Below, one piece after another: positions 20,031-56,798 of a DNA stretch of 56,798 nt; positions within the stretch are counted from its first letter, which is position 1; each line of letters starts with the position of its first letter. Source of the DNA: a virus. A program made the translations under genes and the position numbers. The DNA lies in the IMG/VR virus record IMGVR_UViG_3300049845_000287, positions 1 through 56,798 of that record. One strand, given 5' to 3'. A model generated the notes under the pieces. The model had not been told where the DNA came from. It worked only from the letters and a program-made list of their open reading frames with translations, and did not search any database.

Positions 20031-20321
20031 TCACAATGCTTCGAGCAGCTTTCGTGCGGCTGCCTCGGACAGGTGGAACACGGTATCGGCTCCGTCCGTC
20101 TCGACGAACTCACCGAGTGTGAGGTCGACCTCGCAGAGCTTGACGATGTTGACCTCTCTGCGGAGCGGGTCGTCCTCCGGGAACCGGGTGAAGTCCACTT
20201 CGACGAAGTCCTCTTTCGGGATGAGGATCGCGTCGTAGCCGACACCCTTGATGTAGATCTCCATCTCGCGCGTGGCGAGCAGTATCTTGCGGATGGGTCC
20301 GCTCACATCGTCAGGTGTCAT
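20031..20321 (-). CDS. Hypothetical protein
   Basis: This 96-aa acidic alpha/beta protein has a start overlapping the stop of the YqaJ exonuclease gene (ATGA), so it is translated with it. An overlapping Arg/Ser-rich frame at 19958-20245 is rejected as a shadow. No function can be named; coupling hints at a partner of the exonuclease, such as a recombination accessory protein. Confidence 0.65.
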   Translation of the reverse strand: MTPDDVSGPIRKILLATREMEIYIKGVGYDAILIPKEDFVEVDFTRFPEDDPLRREVNIVKLCEVDLTLGEFVETDGADTVFHLSEAAARKLLEAL

Positions 20322-21109
20322 AGGCCCAGCCCTTCAGGGCACAGGCTCTGCTCGTCGATGACGAGCTTGCACACGTCCGCCTCACTCAGGCCGGGCGGGA
20401 TGCCGAGCTTGCCCACGGTCACGTCGGCCGTGAGGTCGTAGTCGGCTGCCTTGCTCCAGTACGCCTTCGCTGTGGTGGCGATGGCTTCGAGCTCGGTCTC
20501 GAGTTCGGTGCGGCTGTATGCCTTGACGAACATCTGGTGCTTGGCACCCGGGTTATAGAGAACCAGGTAGCCGAAGTCGATGGTCGGCATGACGTAGAGC
20601 GCAGCCGCCAGTTGCCACCGCTCAGGCAGCTGCATCTTGGGGATGCTCATGCCTGCGGCGTAGTGTGACGATGCGTTGTAGCTCTTGACCTCGGCGACCG
20701 AGATGGCCTCGATCTCTTCGGCAGCGTAGTCGACACGTCCGTCGACCGGCTGGATGCACGAGAGCGCATCGGGTGAGAAGGCCACACCATCGAGCGAGTG
20801 GACCATCGCATCGTCCCAGTGGTGGTAGCTGTGGCTCAACGCGTGGACGAGTCCGGAATCGTTGAGCATGTCGATGGCGTAGCGTTCGAGCAGGTGTCCT
20901 CGTGCCATGACACCTCTGCTCTCGCAGTCCTCTTCGCGTACCACCGCTTGCTTGGTGGCCCACACGTCGCGGATCGCGTCCTCGATGGCGGCGGGTGACT
21001 TGGGCCTGCCTGTCGCTGTGACGCCCAGCATCTTCACGATGTCGGACGCGGTGATGTAGCTGCGTCGTGCGTCCAGCCATTCGTAGCTGGTCTTGTGATA
21101 CCAGTCCAT
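20318..21109 (-). CDS. YqaJ-family viral recombination exonuclease
   Basis: This 263-aa protein shows the YqaJ/lambda-exonuclease-type PD-(D/E)XK pattern: WLDARRSYITASDIVKMLG (11-29), GHLLERYAID (Gly 71, Glu 75), SLDGVAFSPDAL (Asp 107), VAEVKSY (Glu 140, Lys 142) and the Gln-containing helix PERWQLAAAL (162-171). It would resect DNA ends for single-strand annealing recombination and replication. No separate annealase was recognised next to it. Strong GGAGAGGAGG site before the ATG. Confidence 0.82.
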   Translation of the reverse strand: MDWYHKTSYEWLDARRSYITASDIVKMLGVTATGRPKSPAAIEDAIRDVWATKQAVVREEDCESRGVMARGHLLERYAIDMLNDSGLVHALSHSYHHWDDAMVHSLDGVAFSPDALSCIQPVDGRVDYAAEEIEAISVAEVKSYNASSHYAAGMSIPKMQLPERWQLAAALYVMPTIDFGYLVLYNPGAKHQMFVKAYSRTELETELEAIATTAKAYWSKAADYDLTADVTVGKLGIPPGLSEADVCKLVIDEQSLCPEGLGL

Positions 21110-21682: not shown

Positions 21683-22351
21683 TCAGAAGGGCAGGTCGTC
21701 GCCTTCGACCACGGGCGAACCGGGCGCTGCGGCTGCGGCTGCGGCTGCGGCGTGCGCTGCTGCCGGGTCGGCCGCGGCTGCGGCTCCGGTCGCCATCGCC
21801 GGATTCATCGTGCCGCCCGACACGCTGGTGTTGTGATACACCTTGGGCAGCAGGTAGATCGGGTCGATCGGATTGGCAGGGTCGGGCGCGTAGGGCGCAC
21901 CGGGTGCGGTGGCCGACACGTCTTCGACCGTCCACGGGCGCGGGTTGTTGCGGCCATAGCCGAACCCCGGAGGCGGCGCGACGGTCGTGACCTTGATAGT
22001 CTTGCCGATGAGCTGGGTGAACTGGTCGCCTCCGCCCGCGATGGCGAGCTTGTAGAGGTCGATGTGGACGTGCGGCTTGAGGCCCTGCTTGGCCTCCTTG
22101 CCGGCAGGTGTGATGGTCCAGGTGCGGTAGCCGCCCTTGGGTCCGACCAGCACGAGCCGGATGTTCATCTTCGGATTGCCGTCAGGCCAGAACGCCGGGC
22201 CGGTCGGGCGACCGTCGGCGCTGAACTCGTTGGCCTGCACTTCCTGGATGGCTGCCACCGTGCCGATGAGCTCGAGCGCGAAGCCCGCGTCATCAGGTCG
22301 GGAGTAGTTCCAGTTGTGGCTGTCCCCCGACGGGACTGGGTTGAGACTCAT
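21683..22351 (-). CDS. Single-stranded DNA-binding protein (SSB-like)
   Basis: This 222-aa protein has a beta-rich N-terminal region (about 22-145) suited to an OB fold. A disordered Ala/Gly/Pro tail with long Ala runs follows, ending in EGDDLPF. That C-terminal tip matches the acidic, Phe-terminated SSB tip (DDDIPF) that recruits repair and replication proteins. ATG 22351 follows GGAAGGAGCACA; the track's earlier in-frame start is rejected. It sits between PrimPol and the exonuclease, as expected for a replication SSB. The OB domain itself is too diverged to call by eye. Confidence 0.7.
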   Translation of the reverse strand: MSLNPVPSGDSHNWNYSRPDDAGFALELIGTVAAIQEVQANEFSADGRPTGPAFWPDGNPKMNIRLVLVGPKGGYRTWTITPAGKEAKQGLKPHVHIDLYKLAIAGGGDQFTQLIGKTIKVTTVAPPPGFGYGRNNPRPWTVEDVSATAPGAPYAPDPANPIDPIYLLPKVYHNTSVSGGTMNPAMATGAAAAADPAAAHAAAAAAAAAPGSPVVEGDDLPF

Positions 22352-22725
22352 TGTGCTCCTTCCGTGCCGATGAACGTGTAGTCCATCGGCTTCCAGATGT
22401 GTCGTAGATCGTTGATGTTGTAGCTGCCGTAGTGCCTGTGCAGCCTGCCGAGCTTGACGCGCCAGGACTCTGACCACGCTTCGAGATGCTTACGCTGCAT
22501 GTTGGTCAGCGTGTCTTCCATCATCTCCTCGAAGTCGTCGACGTAGTACCGCTCGGGTCTCAGCGGATGGCCGTCGGTCATCTCTCCGATGCGGACGATG
22601 ACGAACCAGTTGACCATGTCGTTGTTGCGTCTGCCCTGCGTGAACGACAGGTCGTCGTTCTCGATCATGCGGAGCAGTCGCTCCGGTCCGAACGAGCAGG
22701 GGTCAGCCACATACTGGCTAGTCAC
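22348..22725 (-). CDS. Hypothetical protein
   Basis: This 125-aa protein (GTG start) is rich in Arg, Met and Tyr. It overlaps the SSB-like gene by four bases (ATGA) and the upstream small gene by eight. No motif is recognised; coupling places it in the replication block. Confidence 0.65.
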   Translation of the reverse strand: MTSQYVADPCSFGPERLLRMIENDDLSFTQGRRNNDMVNWFVIVRIGEMTDGHPLRPERYYVDDFEEMMEDTLTNMQRKHLEAWSESWRVKLGRLHRHYGSYNINDLRHIWKPMDYTFIGTEGAQ

Positions 22726-22868: not shown

Positions 22869-23666
22869 TTACCTCCCTTCGGTCTCTCGTCGATTGCGCT
22901 GGTCGAGCCTGACCTTGAGATAGGTCTTGAGTGCAGACCAGAACTCACGGTTGAGCGTCGCGCGCGGCACACCGTTGGACACCTTGTCCTTGGTGTAGAC
23001 CGCGGCGTTCTTCTGGTTGCCCATCAGGTCGAGCTTGGCATACGGGAAATGGCTGATGGGGATCTGCCTGTCGGTCTCGAAGTACAGGTGGAATGACCCC
23101 GGCTTCGCAGGATTTTCCCAGGTTTCTGTGAAGTTCCGATACCTGTTGCCGAACTCGATGACCTGCTCGTCGACCTCTCCGTGTCCGACACCGTCGATGT
23201 CGATGACGATGAAGGTCTGAGCGTAGAGGTTCTGACCCACCCAGCCGCACGGTGACAGGGCTTGCGCCTCTGCCCTCTCGTACAGGGTGGGCTTGTACTC
23301 TTGCGAGTAGCCCCACTTCTGGAGCGGCAGGTTCTGGTCCGAGCACGGGAACCACCTGCGGTCCGTGCCTGTCCAGCCTCGTGGCCACTTGTCGAAGTCA
23401 CGCAGCTTGGAGTCGGGCACGGCGATGAAGTTCTCGCTGCCCGGTTTGAGCAGCGGGTTGAGCACTGAGGACTGGCGGGATGTCCGGTAGTTCCAGTTCC
23501 CCTCTTGCCACGCTCGCGCGTCCTTCTCTCGGAGCGGGAGGTCGAGCTCGGTGCAGAGTGCGACGCACTTCTCGAACGTCACACCCATGCACCCGGCTCG
23601 GAACATGGCGAAGTAGGGAGACTCTCCCTTGTGGAACAGGTCCTGCCAGTCAAGCTCACCAGGCAC
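22869..23666 (-). CDS. PrimPol (archaeo-eukaryotic primase domain)
   Basis: This 265-aa protein carries the three AEP motifs: FIVIDIDG with the metal-binding Asp pair (156, 158), SFHLYFETD (191-199, the S-x-H motif) and AKLDLMG (Asp 213). It would lay primers and possibly extend them. The domain stands alone; the helicase normally fused to it is a separate gene at 33711 on the other strand. Start is GTG 23666 behind GGAAGGGA, overlapping the AAA ATPase gene by 11 bases; longer frames upstream run inside that gene. Confidence 0.82.
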   Translation of the reverse strand: MPGELDWQDLFHKGESPYFAMFRAGCMGVTFEKCVALCTELDLPLREKDARAWQEGNWNYRTSRQSSVLNPLLKPGSENFIAVPDSKLRDFDKWPRGWTGTDRRWFPCSDQNLPLQKWGYSQEYKPTLYERAEAQALSPCGWVGQNLYAQTFIVIDIDGVGHGEVDEQVIEFGNRYRNFTETWENPAKPGSFHLYFETDRQIPISHFPYAKLDLMGNQKNAAVYTKDKVSNGVPRATLNREFWSALKTYLKVRLDQRNRRETEGR

Positions 23667-24696
23667 GACCGGATCCCTTCCAGATCGGCACGTCGAACAG
23701 CTTGGATGGACGCTGTGTCGCTGCCGTGACCACCTCGTTGTCGAGCTCACTGACCTGCGTGGCTGACATGTAGGCGATGAGCTTGCCCATGAAGTAGGTG
23801 GTCTCCTTGCTCTCATTGGGATTGGGCACGTCGGCCTCGGTGAAGAACGTCTTGAGGTCGGCCAGTGTCTCGCACTGATCGAGCGACTCGATGATGGCGA
23901 GCAGAGCCTTGTCCTCTTCAGGAGTCTCGGTGATGCCGCTCTGCTCGGTCGCCCAGCCCAGCAACCGTGCCTTCGTCTTCTCGAACGTGGTGTCGTCTCT
24001 GAAGCTGGCGTAGATGGAGTGGACCATGGCCGGCGCTATCCCACCGGTCAGCCAGAACGGATCGTCACGTCGGATCTGAGTGGCGATGCGGATGAGGTTC
24101 TCCATCGTGCGTGGAGTCCAGTAGTTCCAGTCCGTGGCGGAAGCAAAGCCCTGCTTGTACTGGTCAGTGATGGCCTGGATGATGCGCTTGTCAGGCTCCA
24201 CGCCCCACGTCAGACGCATGTACTTGACCCAGGTGTCCGGGTGCCAGTTGACCGTCACCCACCAGAAGCGTTGCTTGGTCTGAGGCAGCAGCTCGCATCG
24301 TCCTTGAGGATTACCCATGGCCACGATGACCAGTGACGGGAGCTTCTTGCCCGAGAGCATGGTGCGTTCCTGGATGAGGGTGAGGCAGGCGTTGAGCGTC
24401 TGGATGTTGCCGTTGGTGAACTCGTCGAACGCGAGCACGTCACCATCCTCGAGCTCGAGCAGGGTGGAGTAGTCGAACACCTCCATCTGCTGCGTGTCAG
24501 GCACGGGCATCGGCATGCCGCTGATCTCGGATGGCATGCGTTGGCTGATGATGAGTTCGCAGTACCGCTTGTCGTGGGCTTCGGCCCACTGCTTGACCTG
24601 CGATGTCTTGCTCAGTCCGGGGTCCGACATCAGCCCGAGTGCCACGTCGTCGCGGACCTTGTCGACCACGTCGAGCAGGTGTGTGATCTTGTCCAA
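23656..24696 (-). CDS. MoxR-like AAA ATPase
   Basis: This 346-aa protein has a modified Walker A (GLMSDPGLSKTS, 21-32, with Ser in place of the usual Gly before Lys), Walker B DVLAFDEF (86-93) and sensor 1 Asn in VAMGNPQG (126-132). This is the pattern of MoxR/dynein-type AAA ATPases that remodel partner proteins. A VWA protein gene, the usual MoxR partner, lies one gene upstream. TTG start at 24696 directly after the upstream TAG and behind GGGAGGG. Confidence 0.78.
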   Translation of the reverse strand: MDKITHLLDVVDKVRDDVALGLMSDPGLSKTSQVKQWAEAHDKRYCELIISQRMPSEISGMPMPVPDTQQMEVFDYSTLLELEDGDVLAFDEFTNGNIQTLNACLTLIQERTMLSGKKLPSLVIVAMGNPQGRCELLPQTKQRFWWVTVNWHPDTWVKYMRLTWGVEPDKRIIQAITDQYKQGFASATDWNYWTPRTMENLIRIATQIRRDDPFWLTGGIAPAMVHSIYASFRDDTTFEKTKARLLGWATEQSGITETPEEDKALLAIIESLDQCETLADLKTFFTEADVPNPNESKETTYFMGKLIAYMSATQVSELDNEVVTAATQRPSKLFDVPIWKGSGRAW

Positions 24697-25080
24697 CTAA
24701 TACCCTCCCTTCGCATGCTCGGCGAAGTCGTCGAGATACCAGAACAGCATCCCGTCCTCTGACCAGACCTCGTAGTCCTTGACCGAGCGTCCATGCTTGG
24801 CGATGACGAGAAACCCTCGCACGCTTCCGACATTGGACGCCTCGGTCTTGGTCTCATCGAGCCAGTCCTGCCGCTGCTTGCGGCTGACGTTGACGGTCTG
24901 TCTGCCACCCTTGACTTCGAGCACGGCCGAGACACAGCCATGCCCGCCTCTGATGTGGATGTCACCTTGGTCGGACTGTCCTTTGAGCACGACACGGTAG
25001 GCGTCGAGCCCGGCCGCCAAGAGTTCCTTGACGACACGGGTCTCGGCCGCCGTGCCTTTGGCTTTCGGCTTGTTCACCAT
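24697..25080 (-). CDS. PD-(D/E)XK endonuclease, Holliday-junction-resolvase-like
   Basis: This 127-aa protein has the order of the resolvase/VRR-NUC type core: KGTAAETRVVKELLAAG with Glu 13, QSDQGDIHI with Asp 40, and AVLEVKGG with Glu 55 and Lys 57, then a basic helix. These residues form a complete metal site. It would cut branched DNA before packaging or during recombination. It lies between the VWA and AAA genes and overlaps the VWA gene by seven bases. Confidence 0.75.
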   Translation of the reverse strand: MVNKPKAKGTAAETRVVKELLAAGLDAYRVVLKGQSDQGDIHIRGGHGCVSAVLEVKGGRQTVNVSRKQRQDWLDETKTEASNVGSVRGFLVIAKHGRSVKDYEVWSEDGMLFWYLDDFAEHAKGGY

Positions 25081-26087
25081 CGGCGCTCTGTCCTCGTGAA
25101 GAACTTCGCCCAGTCCGTGTGGTGATGGACCGTGGCGTCGGGACAGGCACGCATGGCCCAGCGGCAGTAGCCTGCGCCGTGCGTGTAGCTGCGTCCGTAG
25201 GTGTCGTTCTCCATGCAGAAGAACGAGTAGATGTTCTCGATCCTGAGCTTGGCCAGCTCATCGTGCAGCTTCGACTCGTAGCTCTCGGGGTTGTCCGAGT
25301 CACCGAAGCAGATGATGTTGCGGTAGTTCATGTCGCGGGTGCGCAGGATCTCGTTGAACATCCGGCCTTCGTTGGCGTAGTTGATGCGCCGGCGCACGTC
25401 ACGGATGTCGAGGCGCCTGGCCTCTTCATTGGTGAAGAACTCGGAGCGGCCGCCGGTGATGATGACGTCGGCGTTGGTGATGTCGCTGATCGTGGCGATG
25501 AGCATCAGCATCCCGGTCGAGACACCGTCGGGAATGGATCCCGAGATGTCGAGGATGACCAGGTTGCGTGCCTTCGGCATCTCCACCAGCGAGCCGACAC
25601 ACAGACCGAGCTTCTTGTTGTAGCCGTCGGCCCACTCGAAGTTGTTCGTCACGTTGACGCTGATCGCTTCGCGGATGTCGGTCATGAAGACCGGCAGCAT
25701 CTTGAGATCGGCGAGCATGTCGAGGTCGATGTAGGTCGAGCGGTCCTGAGCCAACACCTCGAACGGTGTGGTGATGAGCTCGTTGGACCCGGTCGAATAC
25801 GTCGTGCCCGACGAGCCATCGTCAGACGGACGCATGAACACACGCTCGGGCTCGAAGGGCAGACCCGTCGCGTCTTGGTAGATGACCTCCCAATCCAAGT
25901 ACCCGTGCTTCTTCATGAGGATGGGCACGAGCAGTCTGAAGATGAGCGGGAAGTCCACCTTGGTGCCGATGACATACGGTATGCCGGGCGGTGGCGCTTC
26001 CTCTTCGGGCTCGACCAGGTAGATCTCGGGCCAGCCTGTGAACGCTCTGTTCTTCAGAGTCATGGGAAGTTCGATGCGTGTAGCCAC
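25074..26087 (-). CDS. VWA-domain protein, partner of MoxR ATPase
   Basis: This 337-aa protein has a C-terminal VWA domain beginning with VILDISGSIPDG (177-188), where DISGS (180-184) is the metal-ion-dependent adhesion motif. A further strand ends in CFGDSDNPES (about 271-280). The N-terminal 160 residues resemble the helical lead-in of CoxE/MoxR-associated VWA proteins. GTG start at 26087 behind AAGGAAGG. With the AAA ATPase it probably forms a chaperone or remodelling pair; its target is unknown. Confidence 0.75.
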   Translation of the reverse strand: MATRIELPMTLKNRAFTGWPEIYLVEPEEEAPPPGIPYVIGTKVDFPLIFRLLVPILMKKHGYLDWEVIYQDATGLPFEPERVFMRPSDDGSSGTTYSTGSNELITTPFEVLAQDRSTYIDLDMLADLKMLPVFMTDIREAISVNVTNNFEWADGYNKKLGLCVGSLVEMPKARNLVILDISGSIPDGVSTGMLMLIATISDITNADVIITGGRSEFFTNEEARRLDIRDVRRRINYANEGRMFNEILRTRDMNYRNIICFGDSDNPESYESKLHDELAKLRIENIYSFFCMENDTYGRSYTHGAGYCRWAMRACPDATVHHHTDWAKFFTRTERRW

Positions 26088-26726: not shown

Positions 26727-27584
26727 TCAGTCTTCGACTGAAGCGAGCCAGTCTTGCATCTGCTTGAGCATCGTGCGCAGGTTGAGCTCGGTGCCTGCCC
26801 AGCTACGGGCGTCCTCCTGTCGGCATAGGTGGTAGATACGCTCTGCCTGCTCACGGTCGAAGCCGCCTTCCATCATGTACTCGATGGACTGTTCCATCTT
26901 GCGGTCGGCGTACAGCCTGGTCTTGCTCTCACTCGCCCAGTCACCACGAGCAAGGGTCTCTTCGACCCACTCGATGTACTGCCTGGCGACTGGTCGGGTG
27001 TCGATGCCACGGGCCATGCCCTTGGGACAGCGATCGAACTGCCGTGCCCAGAACATGACGTCCACATCAGCGATGTCGAACTTCGCATTGAAGTGGTTGA
27101 CGTGTGCGACTCTGTGGTCTGGCCCCCGCAGGTCGATGAACGTCCTGGTGCGGATGTCCATCCCTACCATAAGGTAGTCCATGTCGAAGCGTTTGACCAC
27201 GCCGATCACGTCATCGGCGCCGTCGTGCCAACTCAGGTTGAGCTTGGGGTATCCGGCCAGCTCGAGACCCACGGTCTGCAGCTTGAACCTGCGCTTGGTG
27301 GTGTCGTCCCAGTAGCGGATGCGCTCCGCCTTGAAACGCTCGATGTCGGAGGCCGGCTGCCATCCGTGGCACATGAACAACTGGACGAGCGAGGACAGAC
27401 ACGCCTTCGTGTAGCAGAAGACGTCGAGGTCTGTCTCATCCGGCCAGGTGTTGAGCTCGTCGAAGGTGAAGGTCGGCTCGGGACAGTAGGCAAGGATGCT
27501 CTGTCCCGTGTAGCACGCCTTCACTTCGGACGGGATGAGGCCGAGTATCTCGTCGACCTTGTCGCGTGAGAACGCACCATTCAT
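26727..27584 (-). CDS. Hypothetical protein, possibly nucleotidyltransferase-like
   Basis: This 285-aa alpha/beta protein has ETDLDVFCYT (residues about 50-59) in a strand-turn position and a second acidic pair, RFDMDYLMVGMDIR, near 131-144. Such D-x-D pairs occur in polymerase-beta-type nucleotidyltransferases, but the Gly-Ser motif before the first Asp pair is absent. I do not name a function. Its ATG overlaps the upstream stop. Confidence 0.65.
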   Translation of the reverse strand: MNGAFSRDKVDEILGLIPSEVKACYTGQSILAYCPEPTFTFDELNTWPDETDLDVFCYTKACLSSLVQLFMCHGWQPASDIERFKAERIRYWDDTTKRRFKLQTVGLELAGYPKLNLSWHDGADDVIGVVKRFDMDYLMVGMDIRTRTFIDLRGPDHRVAHVNHFNAKFDIADVDVMFWARQFDRCPKGMARGIDTRPVARQYIEWVEETLARGDWASESKTRLYADRKMEQSIEYMMEGGFDREQAERIYHLCRQEDARSWAGTELNLRTMLKQMQDWLASVED

Positions 27585-29606: not shown

Positions 29607-29942
29607 CTAGAACGTCTCGCCGTCGACCACGACGAGGTCGCCGTCGTCGGTCTCGACGAACTCGGCACCCGGCACGATCGTGAACTCGTTGCCGAGCCAG
29701 CGTGCGGCGAACTGCTCGCCCGTCTTGAGCTTGCCGCGGTCCGCCGAGCTCATCATGTTGATCGTCGCAACCGACCCGTCCTCGACCAGGAACGACAGCT
29801 CGTACATCGGCCGTCCGTCCTTGGTCTGCGTGTCCTTCCAGCCCAGCAGGATCCCGATGACTTCCTGCGTCCTGGCCTGGATCTCGCCGGTCTGCAAGCC
29901 CAGCTCCTCCGCCATCTTGGCGTAGTCGACTGTCTTCGGCAC
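29607..29942 (-). CDS. Paralogue A of a duplicated early protein
   Basis: This 111-aa protein is closely similar along its whole length to the product of 30343-30675. Shared stretches include ELGLQTGEI, GILLGWKDT, TKDGRPM and the end DGDLVVVDGETF. It is acidic and beta-rich, and looks like a small beta-barrel. Start chosen as GTG 29942 behind AAGGAGGCG, which aligns with the paralogue start; an ATG at 29972 is an alternative. Position at the head of the leftward arm and private promoter and terminator suggest strong early expression. Function unknown. Confidence 0.75.
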   Translation of the reverse strand: MPKTVDYAKMAEELGLQTGEIQARTQEVIGILLGWKDTQTKDGRPMYELSFLVEDGSVATINMMSSADRGKLKTGEQFAARWLGNEFTIVPGAEFVETDDGDLVVVDGETF

Positions 29943-29979
29943 CGTCCTCGCCTCCTTCTGCTCTTCGGGCATGCTCCCA

Positions 29980-30010
29980 ATAGCACACCCCAAGACACAA
30001 GGGAGCGAGG
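29980..30010 (-). promoter_or_regulatory. 31-nt promoter-like motif, copy 3
   Basis: Leftward: CCTCGCTCCCTTGTG followed by TCTTGGGGTGTGCTAT. It matches the copy at 30712-30742 at most positions and lies the same distance (about 37 bases) upstream of its gene. TTGTG could act as a -35, but no -10 lies 17 bases away; TATTGG is 12 bases downstream. This suggests a non-sigma-70 promoter or an operator. Confidence 0.55.
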
Positions 30011-30099
30011 AGACGAGGGAGCAGCGGCAACCTCGGGGAACGAAGACTGCCTCGACCCTCCTCATATCCTGAGAATCACAAGCTGCTCACTCGCCCATT

Positions 30100-30342: not shown

Positions 30343-30675
30343 CTAGAAGGTCTCGCCATCGACGACGACGAGGTCGCCATCGCTGGTCTCGACGAACTCG
30401 GTGCCGGCAACAATCTGGAACTCGTTGCCGACCCAACGCGCGGCGAACGCCTCGCCAGTGCGGAGAGCGCTGCGATCGGCAGACGCCATCATGTTGATGG
30501 TCTGCACGCTGCCATCCGCGACCAGGAAGGACAGCTCGAACATCGGACGACCGTCCTTGGTGGCGGTGTCCTTCCAGCCGAGCAGGATGCCGACGACCTC
30601 TTGGGTGCGAGCGGCAATCTCGCCAGTCTGCAGTCCGAGCTCGGCTGCCAGCTTGGCATAGTCGGGAGCCTTCAT
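30343..30675 (-). CDS. Paralogue B of a duplicated early protein
   Basis: This 110-aa protein is the paralogue of 29607-29942 and starts MKAPDYAKLAAELG behind GAGGAGG. It is the first gene of the leftward arm. A promoter-like motif lies 37 bases upstream and a terminator follows, so it is probably transcribed mainly as a single-gene unit. The conserved core GWKDT.TKDGRPM.ELSFLV and the conserved end VVVDGETF mark a family I do not recognise. Confidence 0.8.
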   Translation of the reverse strand: MKAPDYAKLAAELGLQTGEIAARTQEVVGILLGWKDTATKDGRPMFELSFLVADGSVQTINMMASADRSALRTGEAFAARWVGNEFQIVAGTEFVETSDGDLVVVDGETF

Positions 30676-33710: not shown

Positions 33711-34892
33711 ATGCACGCACCTGAGCCCCGGCATCTCAACGACTGGCTATGGAAGCCGTCCGTCGAGGAGTCCATCTGCAACAACCCGTTCCACGCCGTC
33801 ATGTGCAAGGTGCTCTCCGGCTACACCGCTTCCCCGATGGACCCGTTCTGGGAAGAGGACTCGCCGTTCACCAAGCTCGCCAAGCTGGTCAAGGCCGAAC
33901 TGATCCTGCCCGAGGGCGATGTCATCTATGTCCGCGAGCGCGACAACCTCATCCCGCTCGGCGAGGCCATCGGCCTGCTCGCGTACTACATGCACGTCGA
34001 CCGGCATGACGCGCGCAAGGCCGCCGACGTGCTGGAGACCAACTTCCAAGGCTACTTCCCCATCACGGGCGACAAGGTGTGGCGAGGCGGCATCTCGCTC
34101 GAGTACCCGAACACGACCGTCAAAGGCGGCCCACCCAACAGGGTGCTCATCGACCTGGCCACGATGGAGGCCGAGAAGCCCGGCATCGTCCCCGGCATCC
34201 CCGAGTTCGGTGTCCACACCGTCACGAGCGCCACGACCGATGTGCTGTGGAAGTTCTTCAACCTCATCAACACGGCGGTCGGCGAGGACCACTTCTTCGA
34301 GAAGGCGCTCATGTACCCGTTCAACCAGCGGATAAGGGAGAAGTCCCATGTACTGGTGGGCAAGGGGGGCAACGGGAAGTCGTTGTTCATGCGGATGGTG
34401 CAGCGTCTGTACGGCGACCGCGCCTACACTGATGCTCCTCAGCCCAACTTCAGAGGCCACGATCCGGCCGTCATCGCTTACAACTTCGTCGGCAAACGAG
34501 TGGTCACCTTCAACGACGTCGGCGACCCCAGCGAGGCGTTCCTCGAATGGCTCAAGCGCATGATCACCGGCAACCTCGAGGTCAAGACCCCGAGCGGCGC
34601 CTGGCTCTCTGTCCCCTGCGTGACCAACTTCATGCTCGAGACGAACCACGCTCCGGCAGTGCTCGACATCGAGGCCCACGCGAGGCGCTACGTCATCCGC
34701 ACCTTCGACGAGGGCTTCAAGCTCAACGAGCACATGACCGAGGTGGAGTTGGACATGATAGGAGAACGCGGTAGTATCACCGCAGGTGACCTCGTCAACT
34801 ACCTGATGCACGTCAAGCCCGACATCACGGACTGGAAGACGTTCACCGCACCTGTCGTACAGGAGATGCCGGTTGCCGCAGCCGACTACTGA
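33711..34892 (+). CDS. Superfamily 3 helicase (P4/D5-type primase C-terminal domain)
   Basis: This 393-aa protein has Walker A VGKGGNGKS (216-224), Walker B VVTFNDV (264-270) and motif C FMLETNHAP (307-315) followed by an Arg-rich AHARRYVIR finger. This is the phage/plasmid P4-type replicative helicase pattern. The N-terminal 200 residues lack AEP motifs; the matching primase domain is a separate gene at 22869-23666 on the other strand. It should unwind the phage origin as a hexamer. Confidence 0.85.
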   Translation: MHAPEPRHLNDWLWKPSVEESICNNPFHAVMCKVLSGYTASPMDPFWEEDSPFTKLAKLVKAELILPEGDVIYVRERDNLIPLGEAIGLLAYYMHVDRHDARKAADVLETNFQGYFPITGDKVWRGGISLEYPNTTVKGGPPNRVLIDLATMEAEKPGIVPGIPEFGVHTVTSATTDVLWKFFNLINTAVGEDHFFEKALMYPFNQRIREKSHVLVGKGGNGKSLFMRMVQRLYGDRAYTDAPQPNFRGHDPAVIAYNFVGKRVVTFNDVGDPSEAFLEWLKRMITGNLEVKTPSGAWLSVPCVTNFMLETNHAPAVLDIEAHARRYVIRTFDEGFKLNEHMTEVELDMIGERGSITAGDLVNYLMHVKPDITDWKTFTAPVVQEMPVAAADY

Positions 34893-36817: not shown

Positions 36818-38659
36818 ATGATGATCCATCCCGACAGATGGACTCCCACGGTCAAGAAGCGCGAGACCGCCTTCGGCGACTTCTCGACGCCGAACCTGTT
36901 CGACAAGGCCAAGAACAAGGCCGGCCAGATCGGGCGCAGCGTCAAGTCCAAGGTCGACAAGGTCGCCGAGCGCAAGGTGACGCCTTACATGCAGGGGCCG
37001 GTGAAGTACCGCAAGGGCGACGGGCAGCTCTCGACCAAGGAAGAGAATCTCGCTCTGCCGCATCCGACCCCGGCACACGCCGAGCAGGCGCAGGCCAATG
37101 AGCTCAAGACACGCCCCAAGGTGCGGACGAGCTACGCCGGGGATCCTCGGGCATACGGTGGCGGCCCCGAGACGCCCGCTATCAAGCGCGGACTGGCGCT
37201 CATCACCGGGCCGACCGGCCAGGACATGGGCTCGCTTATCAACCCGAAGCTTCTTGAAGAGGTCAAGGAGCAGGGCTTCCCGCCTCCCGCGGACCCGATG
37301 GACATGGACTTCGAGCCGACTCCGCAGCAAGAGCTCGTTGGACAGGCGTTGAGCGCGCCGATCATATCCACTCTCGAGGTCGGCGGTGACGCGCTCAACC
37401 GTCTCGGAGGAGGCAGGCGCAACGCCGCCGACAACCCGTACCGCGAGGACGACGACCCGGTCTATCGCTACGTCACCCCCGAGAACGAGGAGTTCACCTC
37501 GGCCGACCTGAAGCACTACTTCTCGATGGGCGACGGTGAACCGGTCACCGACGAGTTCCTGAACACGGCCCGCGCCTACAAGCCCGAGTTCTATACCCAC
37601 CACGTCCCCGGCGCGGAGCTTGCCTCGGACGGGAAGACCTGGGTGCGCTACACCCATCTCGCACTCGGAGACGAGAAGAACCCGGTCATCGTCCCTGTCG
37701 AGGACTTCGAGAACCGCACCTACCTCGGCCAGGGGATCAGCCCGGACTACATCGGCCCCGAGCTCGACGAAATCTGGCGCACCCAGATCAACGAGAACAA
37801 GTTCGGCACCGCCGTCCCGCGCGCCCCGCTCCAGGACCGCACGAACAAGTGGGCGTGGGAGCCCGGCTTCGACCCGAAAGACATCCCGTGGGACGAGCAG
37901 ATGGAGTGGTACACCGACCTCTCGCTCGGTTCCTCGCCCTACTATGTGCCCGGCGTGCGCTACGGCGCGGGCGCTGCGCGGGCGCTTCCTTATGCGCTTG
38001 GGTACGAGGGCGAGACCGGTATGGGCCAGGGAGTCGGGCTCGACAACGTGATGGGCATGGGGAACCTGTCCTACAACGACAAGGACCTCAATGTCGGCCA
38101 AGCGGTCGGCGGCACCGTCCAGCCGATGGTGGAAGCGTGGGCCGAGTACGGCCTGTCGGACACCGCGGTCGGCGGTGCCATGAAGCTCGCCAAGGTCATG
38201 CCGAAGGGGTTGCGCACCTCTCTGTCGAAGACCGCCGCTGCCCAGGCGTTCGGCCCGCTCGGCAGGACGCTGCCCGCGCAGGTGGTGGCCGGCGGCCTCA
38301 CAGAAGGGTTCGAGGAGATCCTCGGCGTCATCCCCGGCATGATCGCCCAGGACGGCCTTGGCAACCTCGGCCGTGACCGCAAGTGGAACGACAAGATGGA
38401 GCGGTGGGACTACGGCAAGGGTGACTTCTGGACACGGGCGGGCAACGTCGGCACCGCGATGGGCGAGGCGTTCGCATCAGGTGCGGCCATGGGCCTGCCG
38501 ATGTCGCTCGGTGGCGAGCTCCTCTCGCGCGCCAAGGGAGAAGGCACGACCGGCAAGAAGCCATACGTCGCACCGCCACAGATAGAAGCCGCACCCAGAG
38601 CGGACGGTCAGAGCCAAAGCGACCGTATCGCCGCGTTCCGTGATGAGAGGGCTCGCTGA
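36818..38659 (+). CDS. Putative internal/ejection virion protein
   Basis: This protein is about 613 aa, from the ATG at 36818 (or 36821) behind AGGAG. The basic N-terminal region (SKVDKVAERKV) is followed by a soluble, Pro-rich middle. The C-terminal part has amphipathic Gly/Ala-rich helices (GGLTEGFEEILGVIPGMIAQ, and GEAFASGAAMGLPMSLGGELL region near 545-570), which resemble membrane-active parts of ejection proteins. It overlaps the giant 2365-aa gene by one base. Role inferred from composition and order, as for T7 gp15/gp16. Confidence 0.6.
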   Translation: MMIHPDRWTPTVKKRETAFGDFSTPNLFDKAKNKAGQIGRSVKSKVDKVAERKVTPYMQGPVKYRKGDGQLSTKEENLALPHPTPAHAEQAQANELKTRPKVRTSYAGDPRAYGGGPETPAIKRGLALITGPTGQDMGSLINPKLLEEVKEQGFPPPADPMDMDFEPTPQQELVGQALSAPIISTLEVGGDALNRLGGGRRNAADNPYREDDDPVYRYVTPENEEFTSADLKHYFSMGDGEPVTDEFLNTARAYKPEFYTHHVPGAELASDGKTWVRYTHLALGDEKNPVIVPVEDFENRTYLGQGISPDYIGPELDEIWRTQINENKFGTAVPRAPLQDRTNKWAWEPGFDPKDIPWDEQMEWYTDLSLGSSPYYVPGVRYGAGAARALPYALGYEGETGMGQGVGLDNVMGMGNLSYNDKDLNVGQAVGGTVQPMVEAWAEYGLSDTAVGGAMKLAKVMPKGLRTSLSKTAAAQAFGPLGRTLPAQVVAGGLTEGFEEILGVIPGMIAQDGLGNLGRDRKWNDKMERWDYGKGDFWTRAGNVGTAMGEAFASGAAMGLPMSLGGELLSRAKGEGTTGKKPYVAPPQIEAAPRADGQSQSDRIAAFRDERAR

Positions 38660-41600
38660 TGTCGAAGACCCATGGTGCCCCTACCGTCGGCCCCGGCGGG
38701 ACCAGAGGCGATGCCGAGCAGGGGCAACCGCGCATCAACATCCCGAAGATCGAGGTCGATGTACCGGCTATCGAGACCCCGGTCACCGAGGCACCGGCGG
38801 AGACCGGAGCACCGCAGGGTACACCCCAAGGCGCACCGAAGACCGTGGTGCCGCCTGCGGCCCCGGCGCCTGTCGCTCCTCCTGCGGGCCCTCGCCCCGG
38901 CACGGTCGAAGCGATGCAGGGGATCCCGAAGCCGGTCGAACAACGCGCCGAGCAGACCGTCCTTCCCGGCTTCGAACCACCTCCGGCACCCCTCGAAGGA
39001 CCGCCTCCGGTCAGCGCACCGCCGGCTCAGGGCCAGGCTCCGATCCCCGACCTGATGCAGACGCAGGCGGTCGAAGGCACGGGCGCTCCTGCGGCGCTGG
39101 GCGCAGAGCAGCTCGGGTCGCTCCAGACGCAATCGACCGTCGTGAAAAACGAAGAGAAGCTGCTCGAGCAGGGCGGCCTCGAGGCGACTTCCCCCGTGTC
39201 TCAAGCGCGTGTCCCGACCGTCGAGGAACTGACCGGTGGCGAAGACCTGTTCGCGGCCGAGCAGACCGACGTGATCGCGAATCGTGCGGTCGACATGGAG
39301 GATATGGTCCCGCCGACCAAGGCGACCAGGGCGAACCTGCCTGACCGCTCGTCGAAGGCCGTGCTCAAGGAGCAGCGCGAAGAGGCGACCGCCGGGTACG
39401 GCACCGACGAGACGGGAACGGCCGTCCGCGGCAAGCTCTCCGCAGGGTGGGACGTCAAGATCCACGAGATCTCGGTGTCCGCCGAGCAGCTCGTCGACGC
39501 ATGGCGGCATCAGACCTCCGGTCTGCGCGAGCTCATGACCGAGTACGGCTACGACCAGGAGCAGATGCTCGCCAACCGCGCGTACGCGATCTGGGCCGTG
39601 ACAGACCTGTTCACCAACAACGACATCGAGGCGCTGGCGATGAAGGCGCCGCTCGTCGACGAGGCGTCGGTGCATCGCCGCGTGGTCCGTATCAACAAGG
39701 GACGCGGCATCAAGATCAACCCCATCGTCTTCACGATGTGGAACGCCGACTTCGACGGCGACGACATGATCCTGTCCTTCGGCAGGGAGGCCATCCGTGA
39801 CGCCAAGAGCGCGATGGACTTCCTCATCGGCACGGACGGCGTGGGCAAGATCGACCCCGACTTCTTCGACATGGCTCCCTGGGGCGACGGGACCACCACG
39901 GTCTACGCGCACCTCAGAGAGCTGTTCGAGGGAGACCCCGACAACCCGCTCCTGCTCACCGAGGCCGAGCTCAAGGGGCTGGCGAGCGCCATCGAGCGCG
40001 GGTGGTCAAAGGACTCGAAGGTGCGCGCGGCTGGGTATCGGTCGCTCCTGCGCTGGTCGAGGCAGATCGGCGAGCGGTTCCCGGCCGGCCCCGGTCGTGA
40101 CGAGGCCGTCGCCAGGATACTGACCGACATCTACAACCAGAACAAAGACATCCGCATGCTCACCCTCGGGTTCACGGCGGGCTGGAACTACATCGCCCCC
40201 GCCGACCTCAACGGCGAGTACGGCGAGGAGTCCCAGTTCCCCGAGCTCGAGAGTGATTCGTCGACCCCGGCGAACATGAAGGACATGGAGCGGGCGCTCG
40301 GCACGCCGATCGGCTACGTCCCGGGCAAGAACATCCACTTCCGCGTGACCGCCAGCTTCCTCAAGGCGGCCCGCCAGGTCTCGTACTTCATGGGCATCAA
40401 GCCTCCGGGCGACACCTTCGAGGAGAAGGTCGCGCTCATGGCGAGCGGTATCGAGGCGTTCGACGAGGCCGAGCGCGGTGTCTCCGACTGGGCTCGCAGG
40501 CTCATCATCGAGTCTCTCGGCGGCTTCCCCGCAGACGGGCACCTCGACCCGAAGAAGTTCGACGCCTATATCAAGAAGTTCGTGAGGCGCTACAACTACA
40601 TCGCCTACACGGTGAACTCCGTGACGGCCACCTTCAACCTCGACGACACCATCTCACCGGCCGACCGGCAGAGCTACGTCAAGCCGATCCGCACGGCGAA
40701 CCAGATCGACATGAACCGCGACATCCGCAAGGAGTTCAAGAACGTCTTCGGCTCCTTCACGATGGGCAGGCTGTTCGGCAAGGAGTGCCCCAACGGCTGG
40801 GAGAACATCACGCTCGACGAGTTCGTCCACACCAACAGGGCCGATGCCACATCCCCGGCTGGCGCGAAGCTGCTCGGCCGCCCGTCGACCCCGCTCGACA
40901 CGCCGGCGCATCTCATCGGCCGTCTCGCCGACCTGCGCACCAGCTTCTCCAAGACCTACAACGACGAGTTCACCAAGTCGCTCAAGAAGCAGTTCAGCCC
41001 CGGCGGCGAGCTGCTCTTGCGCAAGGTCGGGATCCTGCGCAAGGAACAGCGGGTGGCCAAGAAGAACTCGGCACAGCTCGACGCCGACATGATCGTGCTG
41101 CTCGATGCCATGCGCTCGTTCTCCGTCGACATCTTCTACTTCCTCGGGTTCAACTCACCGGCCGATCTGGAGCGAAACCCGCTCGGCCAGAAGTTCCTGG
41201 GCGCGACCAACTACAACAAGCTCGGCGGCCTGATGTACGAGGCCGCCACCCGCTACCGGTTCGAGCCGGTCCAGCACGCAGAGAGGGAACTGCGCGCCGC
41301 GAAGAACGGCAAGGAGCGTCGGCACTGGGAGAGCGTCTTGCGCCACGAGCTCGGGGAGATCGCATCGAGCTCGGAGACCTGGGCTGTCATCGTGCATGAC
41401 TACGAGAACGGCGGGGACGTGCTCCCCCGCGTCCTGCTCTCCGACATGACCAAGACGCAGAAGGAAGCCGAGATCGTCAAGCTCGTCCACGAGAGCATCG
41501 TCGGACGACACGGCTACAACAAGGACGAGGTGGCCGCCGGGCTCATGGGCAACCCGAAGGGGCTCTACGCCCGCGACCGCTTCATCTCCGACTTCGGTCA

Positions 41601-44600
41601 CACGAACCTGATGAAGAACGTGAAGGCCGCATCAGACACCATCGACCGGTACGCCAAGCTCAACTGGACGACGATGGTGACCGACATCAAGAACGCCCGC
41701 GCAGGGGCGAAGCCCGACGAGATGAAGCAACTGCTCTCGCGCATCGCACGCGACCCCTCCATCCTCGTGCCTATCGAGAACTGGCAGATCGGCGACGCCG
41801 TCCTCTCGCTGATGGAGAAGTCCTACCCGTCCTCGGAGAAGGCGCAGCAGGAGCCAGAGGTCGCCTACATCTACTCGGCCATCAGCAACCTCATCAACGC
41901 TGGGACGTGGTCGGACCTCGTCGTCGGCGGTGACTTCGCCGTCGGCTCCATCTCCGCGATACGTCTCGCCCAGTCTCCGGGCATCCTGGCCAAGGCGATC
42001 TCCGACCCGAACTTCGCCATCCGCGTCTACGACGGGAAGGGCTCGACCATCCTGTCGCAGTACGCCCTGTTCAAGAAGAACAACCCGTCCGACAAGGAGA
42101 TCTGGGACTGGCTCGAGAACAACCCGCGCATGGCGATGGCGCTGCGCCTCACCACCATGGGCAACAGCGTCAACAAGAAGACCGGGTTCTCCTACACCAA
42201 CGCGACCAAGACGCTCGAGAAGTCGATGTACGAGCTGCGCAAGCCCGAGTCGGTCCCGATGCGCTGCCTCAAGAAGCTCGCCGACCATCCCGGCTTCTAT
42301 GCGATGGTCGCGCTCTCCGTCCCCATGGAGGGCCAGCGCAGGGTGCAGCTGAGGAAGACGGCAGGTGACAACGTCTGGAACGTCATCGAGCTCATCCGCT
42401 CGTTCAACAAGACCGGCATGACCGGTGAGAAGTTCGTCGAGGAGCTCGTCAAGCGCAACGGGCTTCCCGAGGGCATCACGCTCGACGAGGTCAAGAGGCT
42501 CTACAAGGAGGGCCAGAAGGCGACGACCTCGATCGCCGAGGCCGACCAGTACGACGTGCGCGACACGCGCGAGTACCAGATAGGCCAGCTCATGGCGCAC
42601 CTCGCGGCCAACCTCGAGGAGTACGCGGGTATCGTCGACACCATCCCCGGTGGCTCGCTCGGATTCCCTCCGCGCAAGATCGCACTCGACCTGTTCCAGT
42701 TCAGCGACGAGACCACGCTGCGGTCGTACTTCGACGCGGTGCAGGTCATGAGCGGCGCCAAGACGGAGGTCTCGACCTCGGTCAACGCCGCAGAGTCGAA
42801 GAAGAACGCCGCGCTGATGTTCCTCGCCCAGTACGTCCCGAAGGCGTGCGGCGCGCCCGAGCCTGTCCGGATGAAGACCGGGCAGCTCGCAGCCGTGTGG
42901 GAAGACCACATCGGCGACCAGGTGTTCTTCCCGCCGCTCACCGAGGACGGCAGCCCGGAGTGGTACTACATCAACGAGGCGAACCTCGAGTTCATCACCG
43001 AGTACGCGAACGAGAACTACGGCGGCATGGTCATGATCGAGGACACCGCGGCCTGCGTCGACCCGCTCTGCCGGTGTGCCCGGCACGCCAAGGCCGACCC
43101 GTCCACGAACTTCACGGGGCTGCAGACCACCGAGCTCGGTAGGTTCCTCACTGTGGTGCGTACGTTCTCGGGAGAGACGCTCAACCTCAAGATCAAGACG
43201 ACCGGCGACGACGAGACCGACTCCATCACCAAGAACAAGGTCTTCGAGATCCTCGACGTCGGTCTCGAGCGCAGGCTCAACGACGAGTGGGTCAAGCTCG
43301 GCATGAACCCGGCGCCCGAGACGCTGCTGGTCCTGCGCACGATGGTCGCCGAGAAGATGAAGGAGACCTACAAGGAGATGGGCTACGGCGAGGAGCTCAC
43401 GCTCGACGACTTCACCGCGCTCGCTCATTTCATGGTGCGCCCCTACGAGGCCGCCGACGGGCTGATGAAGATCAAGCTGCTCTCCATCGGCCAGCTCAAC
43501 GCCATCTGCCACGAGGCGGCGACCGCGTACGTCAACGAGCTCGGCGACCAGATCACCCACCAGGGTGTGCTCGACAGGATGGTCGAGGCGCTCTCCGACG
43601 ACAGCATCGTCGCCTCCGAGATGGACATCAACGACGTGACCGCGCTGGTCGACGTCGCGCCCAAGATGTTCATGACGCCGAGGCTGAAGTACCAGCGCAT
43701 GTCGAGCACGGGGCGCAACCTCGAGCTCGCCAAGCAGATCGTCAAGGAGAACCCCGACGTCCGTGCCCTGTCGGAGGAGGCGATGGACGACTACGAGTCC
43801 ATCCTGCTCAAGAAGGACAAGCGCGGCCTGGTCGACAGTTGGAAGAACCTCAACCTGTTCGGCGAGAAGTACATGAACAAGCGCTACAAGCTGCGCCTCA
43901 TCGGCATCTTCACCGACAAGGGTTCCATGTCCGAGGAGTTCATCGGCCCCCGCAACTGCTGGCTGCTCAAGCGCGGCGGGGCGTCGGTCGACACGATCGC
44001 CAGGGCGTACCGGCTCGGTATCACGGTGCTCATCGAGAACCCGTCCGAGGTCGACTGGAAAGAGGTCAGTCGCATGACCGGAGGGGAGATCGACGAGAGG
44101 CAACTCGTCGACAAGGGCGGCAACCGCTGGCTCATCCCGATGTTCGACATCCGGCTCAACGGACAGAACCGCTCCGAGAACCACGGCGCGTTCGACGCGG
44201 GCGTGGTCCACGTCCTGCCCGAGAGCGTCTACTTCTACTTCGAGAGCATCCTGAACAAGGACGCGGCGGCTGACGCCGAGTTCATCCCGACCAAGTGGTT
44301 CTCGGACAACATCACGTTCAAGCGCACCGGCACCTACCGGCTGCCCGCCAAAGCGGCGTTCGCCAACCTGATATGGGAGCAGCGTCCCCGTGGCGGCCCC
44401 GGTGTGGTCAACATCGACATCGCCACGCGCCAGCAGATCGAGGACTACTTCGTCGACGGGTACGTCTCCGACACGGCGGACGACGCGCCACCCGAGCTCG
44501 ACAAGAGCATCCCGCTCGATCTGGGCAAGGCCAACACCGAGGAGGGGAGCCGTGAGAACAACCGGTTCCTCGAGGACGTGAAGGTCTACCTGTCCCGCTA

Positions 44601-55602: not shown

Positions 55603-56798
55603 AGCTGCTGCACATGCGCCCCTACGGTTTCGACGTCGGCTCCGTCTACAAGTACGGAGAGATGTTCTCCCGCGTGACCACGGTCAAGGACGCCATCCTG
55701 CCCTCGATCAACGCTCCGGTCGAAGATGTGAAGCGCATCCTCGAGAAGGAGAAGCCTGACGCTGTGATCATGCGCGGCGACCGCTGGCCCATGTGGCAGG
55801 CGGCAGCCGACCTCGGCGTCCCCTACATCCTCGATGCACACGACATGCACAACCTGCGTGTCCCGGCGACCGAGGCCGCGAAGTTCAACGAGCGCGGACA
55901 GATCGAATCGGCGGCAGCCATCATCTTCACGTCTCCCGACCATCAGGAGTACGCGAACATCAACTACAAGGTGCCGCCGTCGCGCGTGGTGCATCTGCGC
56001 CCCACCGCCGCCGCGCTCGACTTCGAGCCGATGCGCAAGCTCAAGGGCAAGCACATCGTCTACGCAGGCGGTGTCACCGAGCTCGCGGCGCGTGACAACA
56101 TCTACGGATACCGTTCCTACGGGGTGTCCATCTTCCCTGCGCTCATCGAGGCCGGGTGGACGGTCCACGTCTACCCGTGCTACTTCGCCCGCGACGAGGT
56201 CAAGAAGGAGTACGCCAGCCTGGGCTGCGTCATCCACGACGAGGTGCCCGAGTACGAGCTGCCTCGCGTCCTGTCGCAGTACACCGTGGGGTATCAGGGC
56301 TACGCGAACGACGACTGCCCTCCGGTCGCCTTCAACTACTGCATGACCTGCCGCCCGAACAAGCTGTGGACGTACCTGTCGGCGGGTATCCCGACCGTCG
56401 GGTTCCAAGGCGGCAACGGGATGCGGCTCTACGACGGGTCGTGGGGCGTGGTCACGCACTCGCTGGACGAACTCGGCGCCGCTGCCGACGAGGCAGCATC
56501 CATGAAGATCACCGACGACCTGCGGCGCTCGCAGGTGATAGACGGTGACGAGCCGCTCTTCCGCGAGCTCGTGGCGATCACCGAGGACTCCATAGCCCGC
56601 GAGCACGAGCTCAAGAAGCTCAGGCCGCTGACGTACCCGGTGCAGTTGTCGGTGAACTTCGGAACGCACAAGGTCGCCGGCAGGGTGTATCGCCCCGGCG
56701 ACAGGGTCACCAAGGAAGAGGCCATCTTCCTCAAGGCGGCCGGTCTGCTCAACGATGTACGGATCCCGTCCGATGGTAAAATGTCGCGACGGGCGAGG
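55599..56798 (+). CDS. Glycosyltransferase, GT-B type (runs off right end)
   Basis: GTG at 55599 overlaps the methyltransferase stop (GTGA). The 400 codons here continue at base 143 of the window for seven more, giving about 407 aa. The N-terminal Rossmann half (KLLHMRPYGFDVG...PYILDAHDMHNLRVP) and the C-terminal half with HIVYAGGV and RPNKLWTYLSAGIPTVGF fit family 1/4-type glycosyltransferases. Likely substrates are virion surface or host cell glycans. An oddity is that the gene is preceded by a strong terminator and lies inside the structural block. Confidence 0.75.
   Translation, partial: MKLLHMRPYGFDVGSVYKYGEMFSRVTTVKDAILPSINAPVEDVKRILEKEKPDAVIMRGDRWPMWQAAADLGVPYILDAHDMHNLRVPATEAAKFNERGQIESAAAIIFTSPDHQEYANINYKVPPSRVVHLRPTAAALDFEPMRKLKGKHIVYAGGVTELAARDNIYGYRSYGVSIFPALIEAGWTVHVYPCYFARDEVKKEYASLGCVIHDEVPEYELPRVLSQYTVGYQGYANDDCPPVAFNYCMTCRPNKLWTYLSAGIPTVGFQGGNGMRLYDGSWGVVTHSLDELGAAADEAASMKITDDLRRSQVIDGDEPLFRELVAITEDSIAREHELKKLRPLTYPVQLSVNFGTHKVAGRVYRPGDRVTKEEAIFLKAAGLLNDVRIPSDGKMSRRAR
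56673..56798. repeat. Direct terminal repeat, right copy (126 bp)
   Basis: Exact copy of bases 17-142. Shows that the window is a closed or circularly permuted genome of about 56,656 bp after removing one copy and the first 16 bases. Confidence 0.95.

Follow-up and report, generated by a model that had tools for sequence, protein, structure and literature searches.

The closest described counterparts of the locus reported here are pairs of a MoxR-type AAA+ ATPase and a VWA protein bearing a metal ion-dependent adhesion site (MIDAS), as in the NorQ/NorD, RavA/ViaA and CbbQ/CbbO systems, whose clients are respiratory or metabolic enzymes; Midasin (Rea1/Mdn1), a single giant eukaryotic protein working on pre-ribosomes, joins AAA+ modules and a MIDAS domain. 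For NorQD it is reported that one VWA protein plugs the pore of the MoxR hexamer, that the MIDAS of the VWA protein is likely client-binding, and that its variable N-terminal part may govern specificity (PMC9976466). MoxR–VWA pairs are widespread; core genes 24 and 25 of phage N4, listed as core without known function, are such a pair and are given as middle genes (PMC4193335), and in N4 and Schitoviridae the ATPase adjoins the VWA gene or lies one gene away, among replication genes and with pre-late expression in N4. We describe a locus of the virus record IMGVR_UViG_3300049845_000287 (IMG/VR, 56,798 bases; the whole stretch is called the window), in which the pair is arranged in a similar way and, unlike the bacterial systems, neighbours nucleic-acid enzymes, namely a nucleotidyltransferase, a PrimPol-type primase/polymerase and a PD-(D/E)XK nuclease (Table 1). 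The pair was already known from N4 gp24/gp25; the enlarged module appears to be new, and no description of it was found in the titles and abstract starts of the literature on phage MoxR/VWA, primases and nucleotidyltransferases. The linkage of MoxR/VWA, nucleotidyltransferase and primase, found across numerous uncultured viruses of bacteria, suggests an undescribed early machine and not a chance cluster; the preferred reading, to which a probability of about 40% is given, is an AAA+ remodeller that would serve nucleic-acid metabolism at an early stage, the client of which would most likely belong to the nucleotidyltransferase/PrimPol pathway.

Relatives were collected by an alignment-based IMG/VR scan with MoxR (107 relatives, best 80 kept); single-protein IMG/VR scans with MoxR, VWA and PrimPol had given no relatives. 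The 80 loci, four phage records (L002–L004, L085) and the window made up 85 sources, each of which was searched with profiles built up from the individual window genes; they are not independent events, since near-duplicates are present (L049/L050, L058/L059, L039/L040/L045) and L076 and L081 were taken as Burro and Araxxi again. The families were found as follows: MoxR – 84 (all except Phedro); VWA – 79; nucleotidyltransferase – 76; small protein of the 26172 type – 61; window-type PrimPol – 22; nuclease – 10; at every locus the best matches of these families, and of the SSB-like and YqaJ families, share the MoxR strand. Among eligible loci (enough flank, or gene found), VWA was present in 79/82, by which the MoxR/VWA pairing proposed in an earlier sequence-only reading of this DNA was borne out, and the nucleotidyltransferase in 76/79. 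The three loci without a match for either are L004, which is N4-like, and L073 and L079, which are taken to be of the same type; nucleotidyltransferase and PrimPol of the module families were not found beside the pair in these. A PrimPol-type gene of either of two families (see below) and VWA lie in the flank of 62 of the 84 MoxR loci. The constant unit is MoxR, VWA and nucleotidyltransferase, with the small protein in most loci, PrimPol as a usual member of the operon and the nuclease as an optional one. Loci with the 26172-type small protein and without window-type PrimPol (41 in total) are referred to as group 2.

The order of the genes was variable. In the window and L005 it is nucleotidyltransferase, small protein, VWA, nuclease, MoxR, PrimPol; other orders were MoxR, VWA, PrimPol, nucleotidyltransferase; MoxR, VWA, nucleotidyltransferase, small protein, nuclease, PrimPol; and MoxR, VWA, small protein, nucleotidyltransferase, small PrimPol. 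Directly before the window-type PrimPol (22 loci) stands VWA in 12, the nuclease in eight and MoxR in two. Since the loci had been picked by MoxR, reverse seeding with other genes was carried out. The PrimPol-seeded search gave 32 loci, many of them on already-known contigs; MoxR and VWA were present in 19 of the 21 with PrimPol at least ca. 7 kb from the locus start, the exceptions being L105 (a 14.7-kb contig) and L111. The nucleotidyltransferase-seeded search (group-2 sequences) gave 62 viral loci, mostly known contigs, and two contigs of metagenome-assembled genomes (MAGs); MoxR and VWA were found in 57/57 and a PrimPol-type gene in 62/62 eligible loci, eligibility being defined as above, which favours success for truncated loci. 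It is supported that the linkage survives gene re-ordering and that the association of PrimPol with MoxR/VWA is far beyond chance.

In this survey, which the sequence-only reading had proposed, dispersal of its four genes (VWA, nuclease, MoxR, PrimPol) with no association was not seen, with the qualification that some 10 kb separate PrimPol from the pair in Eekayvirinae-type phages. Of its four-gene block, the PrimPol association stood and the nuclease did not, being present in 10/85 sources and for that reason rejected as a core part; the proposed action on branched DNA thereby finds little support. The border of the block (22869–26087) was also drawn too narrowly, as the nucleotidyltransferase (26727–27584), the best tracker of MoxR/VWA, lies outside it.

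Bacterial genomes gave no match with the PrimPol alignment and only the two MAG contigs with the nucleotidyltransferase; no host is therefore claimed. These contigs, assigned by binning to Kordia and Caldisericales MAGs (L184, L185), have the group-2 genes for VWA, small protein, nucleotidyltransferase and small PrimPol, L184 having MoxR as well; they are probably viral contigs, so that the host is uncertain.

The model of the nucleotidyltransferase (predicted local distance difference test, pLDDT, 88.8) matched class II tRNA nucleotidyltransferases in the PDB (top Z 11.3, root-mean-square deviation (rmsd) 3.6, 171 aligned); by title, 23 of the first 26 rows are CCA-adding or tRNA-processing enzymes and three are a 'bacterial protein', which we take to be E. 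coli poly(A) polymerase. Among viral models an Araxxi protein was best, followed by several tRNA nucleotidyltransferase/poly(A) polymerase head proteins; Pfam NTP_transf_2 and DUF2204 matched weakly in 5 and 6 of 37 family members, and profile searches of PDB sequences found nothing for the nucleotidyltransferase or for VWA and, for a group-2 set, weak off-target matches only. The head–neck fold with the DxD motif of class II CCA-adding enzymes and poly(A) polymerase is present; motif B of class II CCA enzymes was not recognised. The tRNA-binding body and tail domains of CCA enzymes were not seen, the protein stopping at 285 amino acids, and most CCA-enzyme rows are matched no further than ca. 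residue 250 of chains of 340–520 residues. As judged by its model, the protein is a CCA-like nucleotidyltransferase and not a CCA enzyme proper, the wording 'CCA-like' being chosen because it is shorter than CCA enzymes. The group-2 nucleotidyltransferase had no match among 50,697 phage records, and therefore no group-2 isolate is known to us; contig L064 of group 1 had no near match among phage records.

For the window MoxR the following matches were obtained: Pfam AAA_5, 1.9e-6 (over the cut-off); PHROG ATPase, 1.3e-19; bpMoxR, 1.9e-5 (slightly short of the cut-off of that model). The family profile (30 sequences) matched Midasin (5e-29, the top PDB match), RavA (5e-11) and NorQ (2e-7), the last standing lower in the list, among Clp ATPases; a CbbQ/NorQ-domain protein was found as well. 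K30, D91, E92, N129 and R143 are invariant in 30/30 family sequences. The Walker A motif SDPGLSKT indeed has, as had been read from the sequence, Ser before Lys, in place of the last Gly; by motif pattern across 85 MoxR sequences Ser stands there in three (window, L005, L020) and Gly in 76, six being unfitted. In RavA the place is taken by Ala. With this rarity of Ser, the serine as a functional hallmark is unsupported.

Sequence models gave no usable match for the window VWA protein. Its AlphaFold2 model (pLDDT 79, predicted template modelling score 0.81) matched by fold Thermus phage Ro60 (Z 9.1, rmsd 3.8, 143 aligned), a TFIIH subunit (8.5) and integrin I (ca. 8.4), with NorD among the Foldseek matches. 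The MIDAS residues D180, S182, S184 and D263 (DxSxS and distal Asp) are invariant in 37/37 family members; at the MIDAS threonine site, where the alignment is loose, the window type has Asn-Glu as against Gly-Thr in the N4-like and Burro types. The HExxH metallopeptidase segment of the N4 gp25 type is absent from the window VWA and present in L004. Proteins of the HExxH-VWA type (L004:4880-6055 and PEV2 gp35, L086) are called 'HNH endonuclease' and the VWA of Microbacterium phage DoTi (gp15) 'ssDNA binding protein', both apparently misannotations.

The identity of PrimPol is motif-based, weaker than those of the other three genes, and the protein is a predicted enzyme: the Pfam search of the window protein was without match, one of 16 family members matched Pfam Prim-Pol (0.0034), and D156, D158, H193 and D213 of the DxD, SxH and hD motifs are invariant in 16/16. 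In 40 of the 41 group-2 loci a separate protein of ca. 150 amino acids with D.D, G.H.W and DLR..GYV motifs lies 3.4–4.8 kb downstream of the MoxR start, the remaining locus (L010) having just 2.3 kb downstream; one member matched PHROG 'DNA polymerase/primase' (2e-5), and the family profile gave a single weak PDB match, ORF904 (0.12). Profile comparison of the window type gave 83% probability across 37 columns with the group-2 and 30% with the Eekayvirinae PrimPol. Two predicted PrimPol families thus accompany the module and appear weakly linked to each other.

DNA polymerase A was found in 0/15 window-type contigs, 3/3 Eekayvirinae-type and 4/5 group-2 genomes, the fifth of the latter having a PHROG 1252 polymerase; PolIII alpha was absent from 23/23 genomes, with good controls, and the PolB model PF03175 matched nothing, controls included, and is uninformative. 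The absence of a polymerase from window-type contigs refers to the DNA polymerase A and PolIII alpha models. Eekayvirinae-type phages (Burro, Araxxi, Phedro) have a portal ca. 26% identical to that of the window as well as PrimPol and DUF5906 genes, and some of them carry MoxR, VWA and nucleotidyltransferase; unlike the window, they have DNA polymerase I and a PrimPol distant from the motor genes. In PEV2, the N4-type MoxR/VWA relatives stand beside an exonuclease and a DNA polymerase, among genes marked as early-transcribed.

Since the phage proteins conserve the residues of the ATPase and the greater part of the MIDAS, a NorQD-like motor action of the phage pair is likely by analogy. The MoxR hexamer would hydrolyse ATP, with a single VWA protein plugging its pore, and the MIDAS metal site would grip the client, as in NorQ/NorD. 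This client would be part of early phage nucleic-acid synthesis, either the nucleotidyltransferase itself or some end or complex on which this enzyme and PrimPol both act, because the nucleotidyltransferase tracks MoxR/VWA best and PrimPol next; the motor might assemble, load or release the client enzyme. The near-constant partners are thus concrete client candidates for a widespread kind of motor. In the window lineage, where no DNA polymerase A or PolIII alpha is recognisable, the replicative core may consist of PrimPol together with the DUF5906 helicase and the SSB-like protein, and the motor would then stand beside replication; the finding points to phages that possibly replicate by PrimPol without a conventional DNA polymerase. 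A bolder proposal, that the motor controls a template-independent end-adding enzyme that works with PrimPol, letting the phages begin, resume or complete DNA, or shield its ends, in a way unlike known phage replication systems, is doubtful; if true, such an end-adding machine would serve window-lineage genomes devoid of a recognisable replicative DNA polymerase. Cultured phages with the set (Burro, Araxxi, MissAmericana) and relatives without it (Phedro, Akoni) make the question testable.

Several observations weigh against the remodeller reading. Among 58 Eekayvirinae-type phage isolate records with Burro-type PrimPol, MoxR, VWA and nucleotidyltransferase occur together in one set of 11, a co-occurrence that in itself counts in favour of that reading; these 11 represent eight distinct phages, perhaps one clade, and the other 47 have none of the three (tblastn, 1e-3). 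Contig L111 (51,907 bases, window-type) is likewise without the three genes and keeps PrimPol, the SSB-like protein and YqaJ; PrimPol as an obligate partner of the motor is weakened by both results. In contig G026 (53.7 kb) nucleotidyltransferase, PD-(D/E)XK nuclease and PrimPol are kept and MoxR and VWA were not found, although sequence may be missing beyond the contig ends; the nucleotidyltransferase can therefore persist without this motor. Close to the module, part of the group-2 loci carry genes for a DnaB-like helicase, a DNA primase and a polymerase as well as Sak4-like genes; as group-2 genomes are equipped with a DnaB-like helicase, a primase and a DNA polymerase of their own, the module there comes on top of an ordinary replisome and does not constitute it. 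Interaction, activity and expression of all members are predictions, as are the client and the timing in the window phage. Finally, some other viral MoxR–VWA pairs are reported or proposed to be assembly chaperones (PMC7824862). What the exceptions leave is that PrimPol is independent of the motor, and that the nucleotidyltransferase almost always accompanies it.

The joint absence of MoxR, VWA and nucleotidyltransferase in the 47 isolate records bears as well on synteny without partnership, by which an early operon with unrelated functions was inherited as a block. The loci were found by similarity, so that many share ancestry, and several are near-duplicates, as this explanation would expect; the persistence of linkage across several gene orders and the loss of the three genes together make it quite improbable.

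In G026 (L186:229-2877, with L094), the interval between the nucleotidyltransferase and the nuclease/PrimPol is occupied by a ThiF-family gene (6.8e-9), a gene of no assigned family and a possible JAB gene (0.087, below the cut-off); an E1/JAB-type set possibly replaces the motor there. These genes in the place of the motor, the patchy distribution in Eekayvirinae-type phages and the fold of the nucleotidyltransferase, nearest to tRNA CCA-adding enzymes, would suit a role in host conflict or RNA repair, in which the CCA-like enzyme would restore or modify RNA 3' ends (e.g., of tRNA cut by defence systems) and the motor would recruit or protect it; for jumbo phages, a repair of ends that needs no template has been discussed (PMC7824862). 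Such a role is considered somewhat unlikely: the constant PrimPol linkage, together with nuclease, SSB-like protein and exonuclease in the window lineage, points to DNA, and by its length the nucleotidyltransferase is without the full CCA-enzyme architecture. PADLOC gave no match for nine of ten proteins and a DolB match at 0.0011 for one group-2 MoxR; a known anti-phage defence system was rejected on this result.

A virion-assembly chaperone is the third alternative: MoxR/VWA would fold or place virion proteins, e.g., a giant internal protein, and the replication neighbours would reflect operon history. The pair of Acidianus two-tailed virus is reported in tail assembly, with the same proposed for jumbo phages (PMC7824862), the gp24/gp25 homologues of Roseobacter N4-like phages have virion genes in their vicinity (PMC4193335), and the virion RNA polymerase of N4 is extremely large (PMC7650795), giant virion-type proteins being present in the window group, too. 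The window pair is however encoded on the replication strand, within a minus-strand block and opposite the portal and giant genes (plus strand), and its VWA is without the peptidase motif of the N4-like VWA; Phedro has a giant gene and a portal, yet a hidden Markov model search finds in it no MoxR, VWA or nucleotidyltransferase. The chaperone is on these grounds held to be unlikely, and an early remodeller acting in the nucleotidyltransferase/PrimPol pathway is kept as the preferred proposal.

The optional nuclease matched PHROG 'RusA-like HJ resolvase' (PHROG 244) at 4.7e-14, and its eight PDB profile matches were without exception resolvases of the Hjc type (E 0.001–0.31); E13, D40, E55 and K57, invariant in 9/9 family members, are the PD-(D/E)XK residues in Hjc context. 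It is by these matches an Hjc-type PD-(D/E)XK nuclease of predicted resolvase-like activity.

Table 1: Genes of the module and its surroundings in the window.
Feature	Coordinates	Strand	Evidence and remarks
VWA-domain protein, 337 aa	25074..26087	-	GTG start; AlphaFold2 fold, MIDAS D180 S182 S184 D263
Hjc-type PD-(D/E)XK nuclease (predicted), 127 aa	24697..25080	-	ATG start; E13 D40 E55 K57; PHROG 244
MoxR-type AAA+ ATPase, 346 aa	23656..24696	-	TTG start; Walker A SDPGLSKT, Walker B D91 E92, N129, R143
PrimPol-type primase/polymerase (predicted), 265 aa	22869..23666	-	motif D156 D158, H193, D213; GTG start assumed
Small uncharacterised protein, 176 aa	26172..26702	-	conserved with the module
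Compact CCA-adding-enzyme-like nucleotidyltransferase, 285 aa	26727..27584	-	G27, D52, D54; fold match
Small protein, tentatively related to 'GRRN', a gene next to the module in other lineages	22348..22725	-	by-eye resemblance
Probable single-stranded DNA-binding (SSB) protein	21683..22351	-	C-terminal tip DDLPF; family consensus YDxDIPF-type
YqaJ-type exonuclease	20318..21109	-	Pfam YqaJ 1.4e-5, over the cut-off
Helicase-like ATPase with DUF5906 domain	33711..34892	+	Pfam DUF5906 3.8e-8

The window carries a perfect 126-nt direct repeat at both ends (17–142 and 56673–56798) and is therefore probably a complete genome. All four open reading frames named in the sequence-only reading exist on the minus strand, and their four names proved correct by fold, profile or motif. 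Its description of them as overlapping holds for VWA/nuclease (7 nt) and, given the assumed GTG start at 23666, for MoxR/PrimPol (11 nt; the PrimPol reading frame stays open to 23816), while nuclease and MoxR merely abut. Of the neighbouring proteins, the SSB-like one gave no convincing match in family searches, its family being present in 21/85 sources and that of YqaJ in 18/85; the own profile of the 22348–22725 protein picks up few other sources. The DUF5906 ATPase is read by us as a putative superfamily 3-type helicase. PHROG search gave no match for two tandem paralogous genes of the minus strand (29607–30065 and 30343–30675), which are 77% identical across 300 nt. On the plus strand (38659–45756) lies a reading frame of 2365 amino acids that contains NADFDGD, the motif of RNA polymerase beta-prime, and matches Pfam RNA_pol_Rpb1_2 (3.6e-6); its product looks like a virion-type RNA polymerase; a virion RNA polymerase fused to tail tape is known for phage P23-45 (PMC10770324). 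The beta-prime motif was not seen in the giant proteins of Burro and Phedro with the pattern used. Of the 23 genomes searched, eight gave a match to RNA_pol_Rpb1_2, every one of them window-type, and the related giants of L088, L089 and L090 carry NADYDGD or NADFDGD.

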